Assembly: GCA_002753275.1 (NCBI GenBank)
Contig: PEAA01000001.1
Location: 62,001 to 126,000, forward strand
DNA length: 64,000 nucleotides
Direction of reading: 5' to 3'
Source: Zetaproteobacteria bacterium
Lineage (GTDB): Bacteria > Pseudomonadota > Zetaproteobacteria > Mariprofundales > Mariprofundaceae
Shown here piece after piece: positions 53,796-60,220 of the stretch. Both the position numbers and the translations under genes were made by a program. The notes under the pieces were generated by a model. The model had not been told where the DNA came from, did no database searches, and worked only from the letters and a program-made list of their open reading frames with translations. Positions within the stretch are counted from its first letter, which is position 1; every line of letters starts with the position of its first letter.

Positions 53796-55658
53796 TCAAG
53801 ACTCTTTACGCCCAAAGAGTCTATCCAGTTCATTTAAGCTCAACGGAACATAAGTGGGTCGACCATGGTTGCATTGTGCAATGTTTGGGGTCTTCTCCAT
53901 CTCTCGTAGCAGTGCATTTTGTTCTGAAAGCGTTAATGCACGCCCTGCTTTGATGGAACATTTACAAGCGCGATTGCCCATCCAGCGTTCGAGAATGCGA
54001 CCATGTCCTTCGGTTGCAATGCCTATGAACATACACGATTCGATCAATTCAGTTAAAAGCGCTTCGGGAGATTCTTTAATCAAGAGCGCAGGTATTGTCA
54101 TGAGTAAGTAGTGATATTCATTCTCTTTCTTAAGTTTGAAGCCAAATGATTGTAATTGTTGGTAGTGGTCTTCAAGCCAGTGAGATAATTCATCATCGAC
54201 ATGCCATAGGAAAGGGACCAGTAATAACTGTTGTTTTATTCCCTCATGGTCGAGTTCCTGTTTCATTTTTTCATAATTAATGCGTTCATGGGCTGCGTGT
54301 TGATCGACCAGCATCATGCCAAAGTCAGTCTGTGTTAAAATGTAACAATGGTGCAGTTGCGCCAGTGCAACGCCAAGGTTAACGCCTTGATTATGCTCTG
54401 AATAGTTTGTTTCGGGACTTTCTGCAGCAAGATGATGGCCAAAAAGACGCTGTTGGATATCGAGATCATAATGCGAAGTACTTCTGACTGCTGGTGAAAA
54501 ACGCCCCCCTTCTGCCGAGTGTGTGTTGGAAATGCGCATACTGGGTGTTTTCATCGCTTCACCCTGTATTGGAGTGTCAGAATACTCTCTTCCTCTTTCA
54601 CTTTGGTATTGCATTTGACTTAATGCCTTATCCGTGGTCGTTGAAGAGACCTTATTGCCAATACTTTCAATTCCTTGTCGTAAGCATACCACAATTGCGG
54701 AGTAAACATCTTGCGGGGTCTTAAAGCGTACTTCGCGTTTTGAGGGATGAACATTAATATCAACATGTGCAGGGTCCATCGAGATCGAGATAACCGCAAC
54801 AGGGTAACGGTCATGAAACATCACATCACGGTAACCCGTGCGCACGGCGTTGATTAGTGCTTTCTCACGAATCACACGACCATTGAGTAAAAATACCATG
54901 CGCGAAGCATTGCGATGATGCAGTGTTGGAAGCCCCATAAAGGCTTGAATATCGATGCCTTGGTGCGCACTTTGTTGATAAGCGCTGTTGGTGATGAAGT
55001 CATCCCCCATCAATGCGTGGATGCGTGATTGTTCATGGGTGTGGGTAGGGATATCCATACGAATTTTACCATCACATTCAAGACGAAATGCAATCAAGTG
55101 ATGCGCCAATGCCAACGATTTAAACACATCAACAACGGCGGCATCTTCGGTTTTTTCACTGCGCATAAAGTGCAATCGAGCCGGTGTGTTGAGAAAAAGA
55201 TCGAGAACCTCAATTCGCGTTCCTTGACGCTTAGGGATGGGTTTCACTTCGAGCCCAATCCCCCCATGCAAATAAACCTCTATACCGTGTTCATCTTCTG
55301 ATCGGCAGGTCTGCATACGAAAGCGTGAAACCGATGCGATCGATGGCAGTGCTTCACCGCGAAACCCATGGCTGGCAATCCGATGCAAATCATCGAGTTG
55401 AGAAATTTTACTGGTTGCATGCCGCTCAATAGCCATTGTTGCATCTTCTTCGGACATGCCCAAGCCATTATCTTCAACCTCAATTTTTCGCTTTCCAGCT
55501 TGCAGAAGACGAACAATAACCCGTGTGGCTCCAGCATCTACGCTGTTTTCCATTAACTCTTTGACGACAGAGGCGGGTCTTTCTACGACCTCGCCTGCGG
55601 CGATTTGATTGGCGATATGATCAGGTAAACGATGAATGGTTTGCAAGGGGATCGTCAC
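53796..55658 (-). CDS. mutL: DNA mismatch repair protein MutL (endonuclease type)
   Basis: MutL links MutS recognition to strand cutting. The 620-residue protein has the GHKL ATPase: VVKELMENSVDAGAT, DNGLGMSEEDA and SHGFRGEALPSI. After a linker (about 345-420) comes the C-terminal dimerisation domain, with the endonuclease motif DQHAAHERINYE, ACKCSIKAG and CNHGRPT. These are metal-site motifs that E. coli MutL lacks, so strand nicking without MutH is expected. The start is GTG 55658, overlapping the stop of the upstream monooxygenase by one base. Confidence 0.96.
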   Translation of the reverse strand: MTIPLQTIHRLPDHIANQIAAGEVVERPASVVKELMENSVDAGATRVIVRLLQAGKRKIEVEDNGLGMSEEDATMAIERHATSKISQLDDLHRIASHGFRGEALPSIASVSRFRMQTCRSEDEHGIEVYLHGGIGLEVKPIPKRQGTRIEVLDLFLNTPARLHFMRSEKTEDAAVVDVFKSLALAHHLIAFRLECDGKIRMDIPTHTHEQSRIHALMGDDFITNSAYQQSAHQGIDIQAFMGLPTLHHRNASRMVFLLNGRVIREKALINAVRTGYRDVMFHDRYPVAVISISMDPAHVDINVHPSKREVRFKTPQDVYSAIVVCLRQGIESIGNKVSSTTTDKALSQMQYQSERGREYSDTPIQGEAMKTPSMRISNTHSAEGGRFSPAVRSTSHYDLDIQQRLFGHHLAAESPETNYSEHNQGVNLGVALAQLHHCYILTQTDFGMMLVDQHAAHERINYEKMKQELDHEGIKQQLLLVPFLWHVDDELSHWLEDHYQQLQSFGFKLKKENEYHYLLMTIPALLIKESPEALLTELIESCMFIGIATEGHGRILERWMGNRACKCSIKAGRALTLSEQNALLREMEKTPNIAQCNHGRPTYVPLSLNELDRLFGRKES

Positions 55659-56875
55659 TATGCTTCAAGTTGTTTAGGCACAGGCAACGAGAGTCCCGTG
55701 CTATGTTGCATCAACATTTGCTTGATGATTCCACTGTTTCCAACCATGCGCATCCCAAGACCACGCAACAATGGCATGCCCGGGAGTTGGCTGGTATAGA
55801 TGTGATTCAACCCTTCCATCGAGGCCATAACAGTTAAAATATCGGGCACTCTTTGCGCAATGAGCCGGGAGAGAATTTCGCTTGATCCATAATCTTCTTT
55901 GAAGCGAATGGCATCCAATATTTCACGACCGAGAATCATGGCATCACGCAAACCTAGGTTAACCCCAAGTCCGGCCAGTGGATGAATTGTGTGTGCCGCA
56001 TCACCAATTAATGCAATATTGGGGCGAATCATATGCGCAGCCAGCCGCGTTTTTAGAGGGAATGCTGCCCGTTGCCCCACTTCAGTGACGCGGCCTAGCA
56101 CAGGACCCATTGCTAAATTCAGTGATTCAATAAACCCAATATCATCAAGCTGCATCAACCGATCTGCTTCTTCTGTTTGCGCACTCCATACAATCGATAT
56201 CATGCCGTTGATCATGGGCAAAAACGCCAATGGACCTGTGGGTAGAAAGCGCTGATATGCCGAGTTCTGGTGTGGAAGTTGTGTGCGAATATTGGCGACG
56301 ATCCCTTTTTGATGCATGTCATGTTCATATAAATGAATCTCAGCATTGCTGCGTACCCAAGAGTTTGCACCATCCGCGCCAACCAATAACGGTGTTTCAA
56401 CGACGCGCCCATCTTCAAATCGCACTTGCAGTTTTCCATTGTTGCGTTGCCATGATTGAATGACCGCAGGGTAGTAAAGTTCAATATTAACATCTTGTAA
56501 TAATGTGAGTTTCATTGCTTCTTGCATTTTTGAGTTTTCAATCAAGTAGCCAAGCGCTGTTTTTTTAATTTCCTCTGCATCAAAGCGGATACCACCGGCA
56601 TGTTGATTATCCCATATACGCATCGTATGGATGGGGGAAGCCACCGTTTGCAAGCGTTCCCAAACACCAATGGCTTGAAACATTTCAATATTGGCCGCCA
56701 CAATCGCCGAAACGCGGCAATCATACCCAAGTGAAATAAAGGGTGCGCTCTCTTCCCGTTCTACAATGAGGATCTTTAATCCTTGCAATCGCAACGCTGC
56801 GGCAAGGCAAAGACCAACCATTCCTGCACCGACGATGATTAAATCTACCTGCTCATTAAAGGGGGAACTTTTCAT
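55658..56875 (-). CDS. ubiI: UbiI/VisC-like FAD-dependent ubiquinone-biosynthesis hydroxylase
   Basis: This is a class A flavoprotein monooxygenase of the UbiH/UbiI/UbiF/VisC group. From ATG 56875 it has 405 residues: FAD-binding DLIIVGAGMVGLCLAAAL, the mid-protein LVGADGANSWVR and GDAAHTIHPLAGLGVNLGL. The GDAAHTIHPLAG form matches UbiI/UbiF rather than UbiH. As coq7 nearby can perform the step UbiF does in E. coli, C5 hydroxylation (UbiI role) is the likeliest function; that is inference. The ATG overlaps the ubiH stop (ATGA). The frame is open upstream to 56980. Confidence 0.85.
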   Translation of the reverse strand: MKSSPFNEQVDLIIVGAGMVGLCLAAALRLQGLKILIVEREESAPFISLGYDCRVSAIVAANIEMFQAIGVWERLQTVASPIHTMRIWDNQHAGGIRFDAEEIKKTALGYLIENSKMQEAMKLTLLQDVNIELYYPAVIQSWQRNNGKLQVRFEDGRVVETPLLVGADGANSWVRSNAEIHLYEHDMHQKGIVANIRTQLPHQNSAYQRFLPTGPLAFLPMINGMISIVWSAQTEEADRLMQLDDIGFIESLNLAMGPVLGRVTEVGQRAAFPLKTRLAAHMIRPNIALIGDAAHTIHPLAGLGVNLGLRDAMILGREILDAIRFKEDYGSSEILSRLIAQRVPDILTVMASMEGLNHIYTSQLPGMPLLRGLGMRMVGNSGIIKQMLMQHSTGLSLPVPKQLEA

Positions 56876-58116
56876 GATTGCATAGAATGGGGTTGTGATG
56901 ACATTTGTGCTACTCCTGCAGCATGTTGAATAAGCAGTTTTTTTAATGAAGATGAGCCATGAATACGGTCCATTATCCATTGCCGTGTTTGACTTGCCAG
57001 TGCGCCTTCAAATGAAAAACCTTGCACCATGGCCTCTGTAAACCCTGCCACTGCGAGTGTGTCTAAAATGCGTTGATCTGCATAGGTTTTTAATAGGGTT
57101 GCATCTCCAGGGTTTTGTTGACTTGCATGCGCAACTGAAAGGGTGTTGGCCAATGCTTCAACATCGCGCAAACCAAGATTCATCCCCTGCCCAGCCACGG
57201 GATGAATGGTATGTGCGGCATTACCAACAAGCGCAATGCGTGGCGCCACAAATTGTTTGGCGATGCGAAGTTCTAAAGGAAAACAGAAGCGTGCGCCGAC
57301 ATCCATAACTCGGCCTGTTTTTTCAATAACCTGCATCCCCAATGCTTGATTGAGTTTTTTTAAAAAGAGTGTCGGAGAGAGTGATGCGATGATGGCTGCC
57401 TCGCGAGGCTCCATCGCCCAAACAACCGAGTAGCGCCCGTCGCCCATTGGCAACAAAGCCAAGGGGCCGCTTGACTTAAAACACTCATAGGCGACATCAA
57501 AATGTCCCAGTTCGACTTGAACAGAGCAGACCAGGCCAAAACGGTTGTAATCCCACCCTCGGGTGCTGATGCCCGCCATTTTTCGAATGGCGCTGTGCGT
57601 ACCATCTGCGCCGACAACCAAGGCAGTCGTCATGGTTTGAAGTACGCCATTTCGATCTGTTTGTAATGCAATATGGGTTGCTAAAGTATCAACCTGGAGA
57701 ACTCTTGATTGCGTAAACCATTGGATACCACTTTTTTGGGCGAGTGTGTGAAGTTCTTGGTTAAGTATAGACATATCAACAACATAACCTAATGCATCGG
57801 CAAAGGATCTATTGTTGGTCTGTAGATCATGGTTGTGGAGCGCAATGCGAGAGCCTTCGGTTGAATCGAACACATCAATATGGCGAATACGACCAGCATG
57901 GTTGTCCAATAGGTGCGACCATGCGCCAATCCTTTGCAGGTGGTTCTTTGAACCATACGAGAGCGCGATCATCCGTTCAGGGTCGCTTAATCGATAGTTT
58001 AAGGCCGATGATTCAATGATGGCAATTCGATAGCCTTGCAACTGTAACTGCAGTGCCAAGGTTATGCCTACAGCACCGCCACCTACGATGATTAAATCAT
58101 AATCCAACTGTTCCAT
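56872..58116 (-). CDS. ubiH: 2-octaprenyl-6-methoxyphenol hydroxylase-like UbiH
   Basis: UbiH-type hydroxylase acting on a ubiquinone precursor ring. ATG 58116 follows GGAGAGGTGGT and gives 414 residues with LIIVGGGAVGITLALQLQL, VVGADGTHSAIRK and GNAAHTIHPVAGQGMNLGLR. The GNAA...GQG variant is that of E. coli UbiH (GNAAQTLHPIAGQG), which distinguishes it from the downstream paralogue. It is divergent from coq7, with 72 bases between the starts. Confidence 0.88.
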   Translation of the reverse strand: MEQLDYDLIIVGGGAVGITLALQLQLQGYRIAIIESSALNYRLSDPERMIALSYGSKNHLQRIGAWSHLLDNHAGRIRHIDVFDSTEGSRIALHNHDLQTNNRSFADALGYVVDMSILNQELHTLAQKSGIQWFTQSRVLQVDTLATHIALQTDRNGVLQTMTTALVVGADGTHSAIRKMAGISTRGWDYNRFGLVCSVQVELGHFDVAYECFKSSGPLALLPMGDGRYSVVWAMEPREAAIIASLSPTLFLKKLNQALGMQVIEKTGRVMDVGARFCFPLELRIAKQFVAPRIALVGNAAHTIHPVAGQGMNLGLRDVEALANTLSVAHASQQNPGDATLLKTYADQRILDTLAVAGFTEAMVQGFSFEGALASQTRQWIMDRIHGSSSLKKLLIQHAAGVAQMSSQPHSMQS

Positions 58117-58173
58117 ACCACCTCTCCGGCAAGAAGGGTACAATATTTATGATTGATTAGGAAATAGTTCAAT

Positions 58174-58906: not shown

Positions 58907-59392
58907 ATGAAAAACAGTTCCACTATTATTGAGAATCAACTCCATATCGTTCTATTTGAGCCCGAGATCCCTCCTAATACTGGCAATATTGCTAGGCTTT
59001 GCGCATGTACAGGTTGTAGTTTACACCTCATTCACCCCCTCGGGTTTTCAATTAATGATAAGCACTTGAAGCGTGCAGGGCTCGACTATTGGCATCACCT
59101 TGATATCCATGAGTATGATAACTGGTCTGAATTTAAATCGGTTGTACCGGTGATGGATCGCTGCTTTGGCCTTTCGACAAAGGCTGTTGAAAGTATCTGG
59201 AATGTTCAATTTCAAGCTGGAGATATGATTGTGTTTGGTCCTGAGAGTCGAGGGCTTCCAGAGTATATTCGTAATGAAATCAGTTTGCTAAAAGTGCCGA
59301 TGTTGCAGCATGACAGTTTGCGCTCTTTAAATCTCTCATCCGCATGTTCCATTGTCACATATGAAGCCCTTCGTCAACTAAATTGTGCGTGA
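58907..59392 (+). CDS. trmL: tRNA (cytidine34-2'-O)-methyltransferase TrmL
   Basis: TrmL 2'-O-methylates the wobble base of tRNA-Leu isoacceptors (CAA and UAA anticodons in E. coli), which would include the tRNA-Leu(CAA) gene in this window. The 161-residue SPOUT protein has IVLFEPEIPPNTGNIARLCA, HLIHPLGFSINDKHLKRAGLDYW, FGPESRGLPE and LRSLNLSSACSIVTYEALRQ, and no additional RNA-binding domain. The start ATG 58907 is preceded by GATCGAGGCTGT. Confidence 0.95.
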   Translation: MKNSSTIIENQLHIVLFEPEIPPNTGNIARLCACTGCSLHLIHPLGFSINDKHLKRAGLDYWHHLDIHEYDNWSEFKSVVPVMDRCFGLSTKAVESIWNVQFQAGDMIVFGPESRGLPEYIRNEISLLKVPMLQHDSLRSLNLSSACSIVTYEALRQLNCA

Positions 59393-59579
59393 CCGTAGAA
59401 TTTTCTCCACCGTTTTTTAACCGACTTTGCGATACATGGACCTGGATAATATTACGAAACCTTAACATTCACTATATAGAATATCGCATTGTTTTTAATT
59501 ATATAATCTGTCATGTATATTTTTTAACCATGATATTTTTTAATGGAAATTATTATATTATGTCGCAAAAAGAGAAAAG

Positions 59580-59614
59580 TTATACACTGAGTTATCCACA
59601 GATTTTGTGAGTAA
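59580..59614. promoter_or_regulatory. Cluster of three DnaA-box-like sequences in an AT-rich gap
   Basis: In the 279-base, strongly AT-rich gene-free stretch 59393-59671 lie TTATACACT (59580-59588, one mismatch), a perfect consensus box TTATCCACA (59592-59600), and the reverse TGTGAGTAA (59606-59614, one mismatch). A/T-rich runs flank both sides, including many TTTTT and TTAAAAAA tracts. The context GAGTTATCCACAG closely resembles box R4 of E. coli oriC. The rest of the gap holds no supported gene; a 75-codon frame across it is rich in Ile/Tyr/Asn and looks like AT-driven chance. Confidence 0.5.
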
Positions 59615-59671
59615 GAAAAAGTATCATAATAATGCTTTACTTTTGTTAAAAAACATTCATAAAGCACCCTA

Positions 59672-60220
59672 ATGAACTGGACTATTTCAAATCAATTAAC
59701 CATTGCTCGCGTTTTGCTTATCCCTTTACTTGCGGGCTGTTTTTATATTCCAAACACCATGGGATATATTCTCGCAACATCTGTTTTTGCCATTGCATCG
59801 ATTACGGATTGGCTTGATGGCTATCTCGCACGCACGCGTAACGAAGTGACTGCATTTGGTCGTTTCTTGGATCCAGTTGCAGATAAGCTCCTGGTTGCGA
59901 CAGCGTTGGTGCTTTTGGTTGAAGATGAGCGCGTCCCTGCCCTACTCGCTGCGATTATCATTGGGCGTGAAATTACCATCAGTGCGCTGCGCGAATGGCT
60001 TGCTGAACAATCTACGGTTGTGCATGTCTCCTTTCTTGGTAAGGCAAAAACAGCCGTGCAGATGGGCGCTATTGTTGCGCTTTTGATTCACCTTCCGCTT
60101 GGTGGTGTTGATTTTCATCTCGTGGGTCTCATTTTACTTTGGGTTGCTGCTGGGCTAACGCTTTGGTCAGGGTATGATTATATAAGGAATGCATGGCCAT
60201 CGCTGACAGCCAAACAATAA
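59672..60220 (+). CDS. pgsA: CDP-diacylglycerol-glycerol-3-phosphate 3-phosphatidyltransferase
   Basis: PgsA makes phosphatidylglycerophosphate for PG and cardiolipin. The 182-residue membrane protein has the CDP-alcohol phosphatidyltransferase motif with Asp46, Asp49, Gly50, Ala53, Arg54, Gly63, Asp67 and Asp71 in DWLDGYLARTRNEV and AFGRFLDPVADK, and about five membrane helices. No clear ribosome binding site precedes ATG 59672. A bidirectional terminator begins at its stop codon. Confidence 0.95.
   Translation: MNWTISNQLTIARVLLIPLLAGCFYIPNTMGYILATSVFAIASITDWLDGYLARTRNEVTAFGRFLDPVADKLLVATALVLLVEDERVPALLAAIIIGREITISALREWLAEQSTVVHVSFLGKAKTAVQMGAIVALLIHLPLGGVDFHLVGLILLWVAAGLTLWSGYDYIRNAWPSLTAKQ

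Follow-up and report, generated by a model that had tools for sequence, protein, structure and literature searches.

The AT-rich gap before pgsA in the window (the whole 64,000-nucleotide stretch analysed here) carries a cluster of three DnaA boxes that, by analogy with E. coli, is probably the core of a DARS (DnaA-reactivating sequence), an element promoting ADP release from DnaA. The cluster forms the right-hand end of a 216-bp composite. This reading is based on the observed box geometry, its conservation, the layout of the composite, the IHF genes and the lack of an origin signature at the site; the reaction itself would be the one described in E. coli, the organism from which the mechanism of DnaA recharging by DNA is mainly known. 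Judging from named close relatives, the window probably belongs in or near the Zetaproteobacteria/Mariprofundaceae. The features are listed below, with negative positions counted from box II.

58907..59392, plus strand: trmL-like gene, upstream of the element (TIGR00185, 169.2 bits, below the curated cut-off of 190.6)
59399..59614, plus strand: whole DARS-like composite, 216 bp (profile R1, 68.2 bits, E 3.4e-20, model positions 4-219 of 222)
59403..59411, plus strand: distal DnaA box TTCTCCACC, 189 bp before box II, aligning with TTATCCAC followed by C or T in relatives
59462..59561, no strand: most AT-rich 100 bp of the window (83% AT), inside the composite
59482..59494, minus strand: IHF-like site, AAACAATGCGATA on the minus strand, at -110, 2 mismatches to WATCAANNNNTTR
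59515..59529, no strand: AT-cored palindrome GTATATTTTTTAACC at -77, fitting the Fis consensus
59580..59588, plus strand: DnaA box III, TTATACACT
59592..59600, plus strand: DnaA box II, TTATCCACA
59606..59614, minus strand: DnaA box I, TGTGAGTAA in forward-strand letters, TTACTCACA on the reverse strand, head-to-head with box II across a 5-bp gap
59672..60220, plus strand: pgsA, downstream of the element (TIGR00560, 170.8 bits, cut-off 109.1)

In the window sequence, the boxes follow the order forward, forward, reverse, with starts 12 and 14 bases apart, in the right part of the 279-bp intergenic gap (59393-59671) between the trmL-like gene and pgsA. The preliminary description had reported three boxes at 59580, 59592 and 59606-59614 with this spacing, in the most AT-rich gap of the window, and both statements were confirmed (AT maxima over 100, 200 and 279 bp of 0.83, 0.78 and 0.742). 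The single mismatch that it gave for each outer box is correct against the degenerate TTWTNCACA; against TTATCCACA each has two. Its interval 59580-59614 contains the core, but the feature is larger (59399-59614); it took the cluster for a genuine DnaA site but missed the core geometry of DARS. Of the two neighbouring genes, pgsA passed its NCBIfam cut-off, as did coq7 elsewhere in the window, whereas trmL fell below. A terminator scan found none.

There is one TTATCCACA box in the window, and the whole genome has 20. The count of TTWTNCACA in the window was near chance (12 versus 8.9 expected), and that of boxes with one mismatch to TTATCCACA was modestly raised (27 versus 17.1; 1 of 100 shuffles reached 27). 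A comparable cluster, defined as a perfect box plus at least two boxes with up to 2 mismatches within 30 bp, was found in 3 of 60 Markov-simulated windows, and the exact 12/14 trio in none of the 60. Stronger proof than this simulation that the cluster is real came from its conservation: the trio is kept before pgsA in same-family relatives.

Searching 30 relatives with the window pgsA identified the 12/14 trio before this gene in 8 of the 18 belonging to the same family, 16 of which have a close pgsA and 2 a distant paralogue alone. Counting the window's own genome, the trio is carried by 9 of the 17 same-family genomes whose pgsA is close; it was absent in 8 same-family relatives with a close pgsA and in all 12 more distant relatives. 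Among 80 named pgsA loci the trio was detected in two, from Zetaproteobacteria bacterium J030 (L144) and isolate NORP111 (L146), which amounts to two of the three Zetaproteobacteria-like loci in that set.

The geometry was also followed without reference to pgsA. The pattern made of boxes II and I was present in 57 of 61 family genomes, with nearly none for the reversed pattern, and the gap was 5 in 37 of 45 head-to-head pairs (gaps of 0-30 considered, counted by hand). Of 28 loci selected on boxes II and I alone, 20 had box III exactly at -12, compared with 5 that had it at the mirror position. Across the phylum, the core pattern with up to 3 mismatches was found in 181 of 398 genomes, the reversed pattern being absent among the matches listed; the other 217 had no core at this threshold. 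Core matches in one family (f24) resemble E. coli DARS1.

Both DARS1 (bioD-uvrB gap) and DARS2 (rppH-mutH gap) of E. coli K-12 contain the 12/14 trio, oriented as in the window. Their cores read TAATACACA-N3-TTATCCACA-N5-AGTGGATAA and TTCTTCACA-N3-CTATCCACA-N5-GGTGAATAA, respectively. Passages of one review state that core boxes I-III have equal spacing at DARS1 and DARS2 and that box I is opposite to boxes II and III (PMC5742627); those of another describe the head-to-head pair of boxes I and II as characteristic of and essential to DARS (PMC10380432). The primers given in PMC4585315 for deleting boxes I-III of DARS2 flank exactly the 35 bases that we identified as the DARS2 core. The window cluster has three boxes, box I opposite to II and III, the DARS1/DARS2 spacing and an intergenic position.

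Alignment of the nine pgsA-upstream regions revealed two further parts of the element, the distal box about 189 bp before box II and the palindrome at -77. In 31 copies, all picked as trio carriers (9 pgsA copies, 20 other loci and 2 named loci), the palindrome was always present with at most one mismatch and was perfect in 27. A set of 51 distinct elements was then considered, after 10 of 61 listed loci fell away (no trio, duplicates, such as L144, and one too short). Within this set, the Fis consensus with up to one mismatch was located at -76..-78 in 48 elements (perfect in 43), and the distal box, within one mismatch of TTATCCAC, at -187..-192 in 40, some of the others having a box near -180. 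Of 40 aligned copies, 32 had the IHF motif YAANNNNTTGWTW with up to one mismatch at -112..-107, and 18 had the strict consensus.

Parts of the same layout were recovered among 20 loci outside the family that were picked on the core alone, without R1 or the layout, and compared with control windows elsewhere in the same loci. The IHF consensus was found at -111..-107 in 13 of these loci (302 controls: mean 0.07, maximum 2), the palindrome at -79..-76 in 10 (377 controls: maximum 1) and the distal box in 7 (84 controls: maximum 1).

Profile R1 is a sequence profile of 222 positions, with no structure, built from 40 of the 51 distinct elements. The 11 elements omitted were mostly near-duplicates and included three without the palindrome (L052, L053 and L062) and one without the distal box (L074), so that R1 leans to the full layout. 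Its E-values are rough. R1 matched 75 of the 78 genomes of the order, with 1 to 9 copies each; the three negative genomes are 56, 87 and 89% complete. In a phylum sample, 116 of 150 genomes were matched, 38 of them from the order itself, weak matches with E-values near 0.01 being possibly core-only or due to chance; the other 34 had no match. Near-full matches over the 222 positions were found outside the order, for example in G127, G115, G096, G147, G132 and G117. R1 also picked up E. coli DARS2 (24.7 bits) and DARS1 (21.7 bits), and its IHF site aligns with the place of IBS1 in DARS2. A second, weaker match (17.8 bits) was noted in the right half of the E. coli DARS2 locus, on the minus strand (L115:962-1105); it ends in a forward TTATCCACA box with a degenerate head-to-head partner.

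Genomes of families f7, f17, f22 and f27 were without R1 among the matches listed, and the element seems to have been lost or altered in these whole families. At the other extreme, some genomes of genus g9 have many copies (9 R1 matches in G053 and 7 in G050), which would be odd for a simple two-site recharge. The composite at 59399..59614 is the only R1 match in the window's genome (G000), where no second copy of the element was found. This copy has its weak points: the outer boxes, the distal box (against TTATCCACA) and the IHF-like site each carry 2 mismatches.

The element shares with DARS2 its three-box core and the location of the regulatory half beyond box III, where a site for IHF (IHF-like here) around -100 has the same strand in both and a distal box is some 190-197 bp away. 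Unlike DARS2, it has the palindrome at -77, where E. coli has IBS2 (-83..-71), its distal box is forward and not reverse, its IHF-like site lies about 11 bp further out, it is found by pgsA, and no canonical fis was found in four genomes. According to the DARS2 literature, the IHF sites of E. coli lie between the core and FBS2-3; the outward order is therefore core-IHF-FBS2-3 in E. coli and core-palindrome-IHF here, which makes the element a variant and not a plain DARS2. An FBS2-3-like arrangement with Fis beyond the IHF site was not found, the palindrome being on the core side and the four genomes having no Fis-sized frame. DARS1 shares the core geometry, and copies in other genomes lie by uvrB or uvrC, the former being the neighbour of DARS1. 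A passage of PMC5742627 describes DARS1 as active in vitro without IHF or Fis, whereas the element described here has a conserved IHF-like site and the palindrome.

Genes for the expected partners were then sought. The gene for IHF beta (ihfB) scored above both curated cut-offs, and that for IHF alpha (ihfA) above the NF001401 cut-off and just under that of TIGR00987. A canonical fis gene was not found in G000, G002, G008 or G016, where all HTH_8 matches were in frames of 182-555 aa, none of them Fis-sized; activation of the E. coli DARS2 type is therefore not directly transferable. No Hda scored above the curated cut-off, the best candidate being a 244-aa DnaA-family frame at C53:56467 (64.9 bits versus 194.8), which could be an Hda-like protein. 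Next to it is a second PgsA-like frame (33% identity), both being on the dnaA contig (G000:C53:56467-57699).

If the element works as in E. coli, box I (59606, reverse) and box II (59592) would hold two ADP-DnaA molecules head to head, and box III (59580) would stabilise the complex. Contact between the AAA+ domains would loosen ADP, and apo-DnaA would then depart and bind ATP, enlarging the supply of ATP-DnaA for the following round of initiation at oriC, a site that lies elsewhere, near dnaA. IHF would bend the DNA from its site at about -110, and the timing might be tuned by a protein on the palindrome at -77 acting with DnaA at the distal box (-189). The E. coli literature is the source both for ADP release by head-to-head DnaA and for what IHF does, and the same reaction would presumably take place in the window's organism.

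An unlikely alternative, raised in the preliminary description, is a DnaA-controlled pgsA promoter, in which DnaA on the boxes would activate or repress pgsA and couple the supply of acidic phospholipids to the replication cycle. It draws on the trio preceding pgsA in 9 of 17 same-family genomes and in two of three named Zetaproteobacteria-like loci, on promoter-like hexamers at 59605-59633 that overlap box I (5 found in the scan versus 2.4 expected), and on the regulation by DnaA of uvrB, the neighbour of E. coli DARS1, reported in PMC6015884. In addition, a copy in G127 precedes uvrC, then pgsA, the other eight stretches tested alongside having no pgsA match. Against a promoter, box II and the pgsA start are separated by anything from 67 to 160 bp across relatives, which is loose for an operator, and the element keeps its internal distances next to other genes. 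Copies in relatives were found between hpnE-like and coq7-like genes, beside trmL-like and nitrilase-like genes, beside recG-like genes and at other sites, these neighbours being named by eye from translations. Outside the order, where NCBIfam naming of neighbours covered 7 of 20 loci, the element adjoins uvrC in four (L291, L292, L304 and L307), uvrB in one (L297) and priA in two (L295 and L296). Copies thus occur in varied gaps (pgsA, trmL, coq7, recG, uvrC, uvrB and priA), so the element is not a pgsA-specific operator. The many copies away from pgsA weaken the promoter proposal for the element in general but leave it a small chance at the window copy, where the position by pgsA may give the element a second, regulatory role.

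Distant copies were seen near repair or restart genes (uvrC, uvrB, priA, and recG-like genes in L102, L105 and L108) more often than we would expect, comparable to DARS1 by uvrB.

A DnaA titration site, where the boxes would soak up free DnaA without nucleotide exchange, is a still less probable account. DnaA-box clusters outside oriC exist in B. subtilis, and their deletion leads to early initiation according to PMC13220808. These clusters and E. coli datA, which also needs IHF as stated in a passage of PMC5742627, resemble the element, by description, in placing DnaA boxes outside the origin; datA is marked by an IHF site that separates its essential boxes 2 and 3 and by the hydrolysis of ATP-DnaA. 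They may differ in the head-to-head pair of boxes I and II, described as characteristic of DARS (PMC10380432), and titration needs no fixed head-to-head spacing, IHF site, palindrome or distal box, all of which are fixed over the order and beyond.

A chromosomal or secondary replication origin at the cluster, suggested by a perfect box adjoining the window's most AT-rich stretch, was rejected as extremely improbable on account of the dnaA gene and GC-skew switch on another contig, the G008 copies in the half of the circle far from dnaA, and up to nine copies of the element per genome. The genome is a 1.86-Mb draft of 55 contigs, with the element on a contig other than that of dnaA (C53:39248). 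On C53 the skew stays near -0.2 over roughly the first 36 kb and is positive by 40 kb; dnaA sits where the sign changes, and AT-rich DNA lies at 40.2-40.5 kb. On the window contig C1 (201.7 kb), the cumulative skew climbs over about the first 110 kb and levels off thereafter, with no minimum at the site (121.6 kb). The single-contig relative G008 has dnaA at position 413, and its skew, sampled in 20 stretches each 20 kb long, has a positive sign as far as 0.45 of the circle and a negative one from 0.5 onwards. In the complete relatives G008 and G056, all 8 R1 copies lie at 0.35-0.63 of the circle from dnaA; a DARS is expected at a distance from oriC, on the way to the terminus. The origin that the preliminary description had mentioned, and itself doubted, was thus not borne out, and the doubt was justified; skew switch and dnaA lie elsewhere, which tells against an origin, and the boxes are conserved in relatives, which speaks for a function.

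For the DARS reading, the conservation of the 216-bp layout in relatives suggests that the recharging switch is old and widespread. According to a passage of the review PMC10380432, many proteobacterial species conserve DARS-like sequences; apart from that statement, the open-licence literature listed nothing specific on DARS outside E. coli. PMC4245941 confines both Fis and the DARS2 core to those gamma-proteobacteria that are relatives of E. coli. In the accessible portions of the open-licence literature, no account was found of a composite with a distal box and a palindrome, or of a linkage to pgsA; no title dealt with DnaA or oriC of Zetaproteobacteria, and pgsA together with DnaA boxes returned E. 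coli papers, none of them with 'upstream of pgsA'. We consider it conceivable, though short of probable, that the E. coli DARS derive from an ancient composite (distal box, IHF site, palindrome and three-box core) of the Pseudomonadota ancestor, that in lineages lacking Fis another protein binds GCCTA-N5-TAGGC as a growth signal, and that the element tends to stay by pgsA, uvrB, uvrC, recG and priA.

The fixed layout is a searchable handle for the site in Pseudomonadota genomes. With it, one can look for organisms that operate an ATP/ADP-DnaA cycle, for the substitute of Fis in genomes lacking fis, and for an effect of oriC-distant copies on the timing of the following initiation. The position next to pgsA joins at one locus two proposed routes of DnaA rejuvenation, DARS and acidic phospholipids.

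Elsewhere in the window, two tandem UbiH-like FAD monooxygenase frames, named by eye from their translation, precede coq7 (55658-58143).
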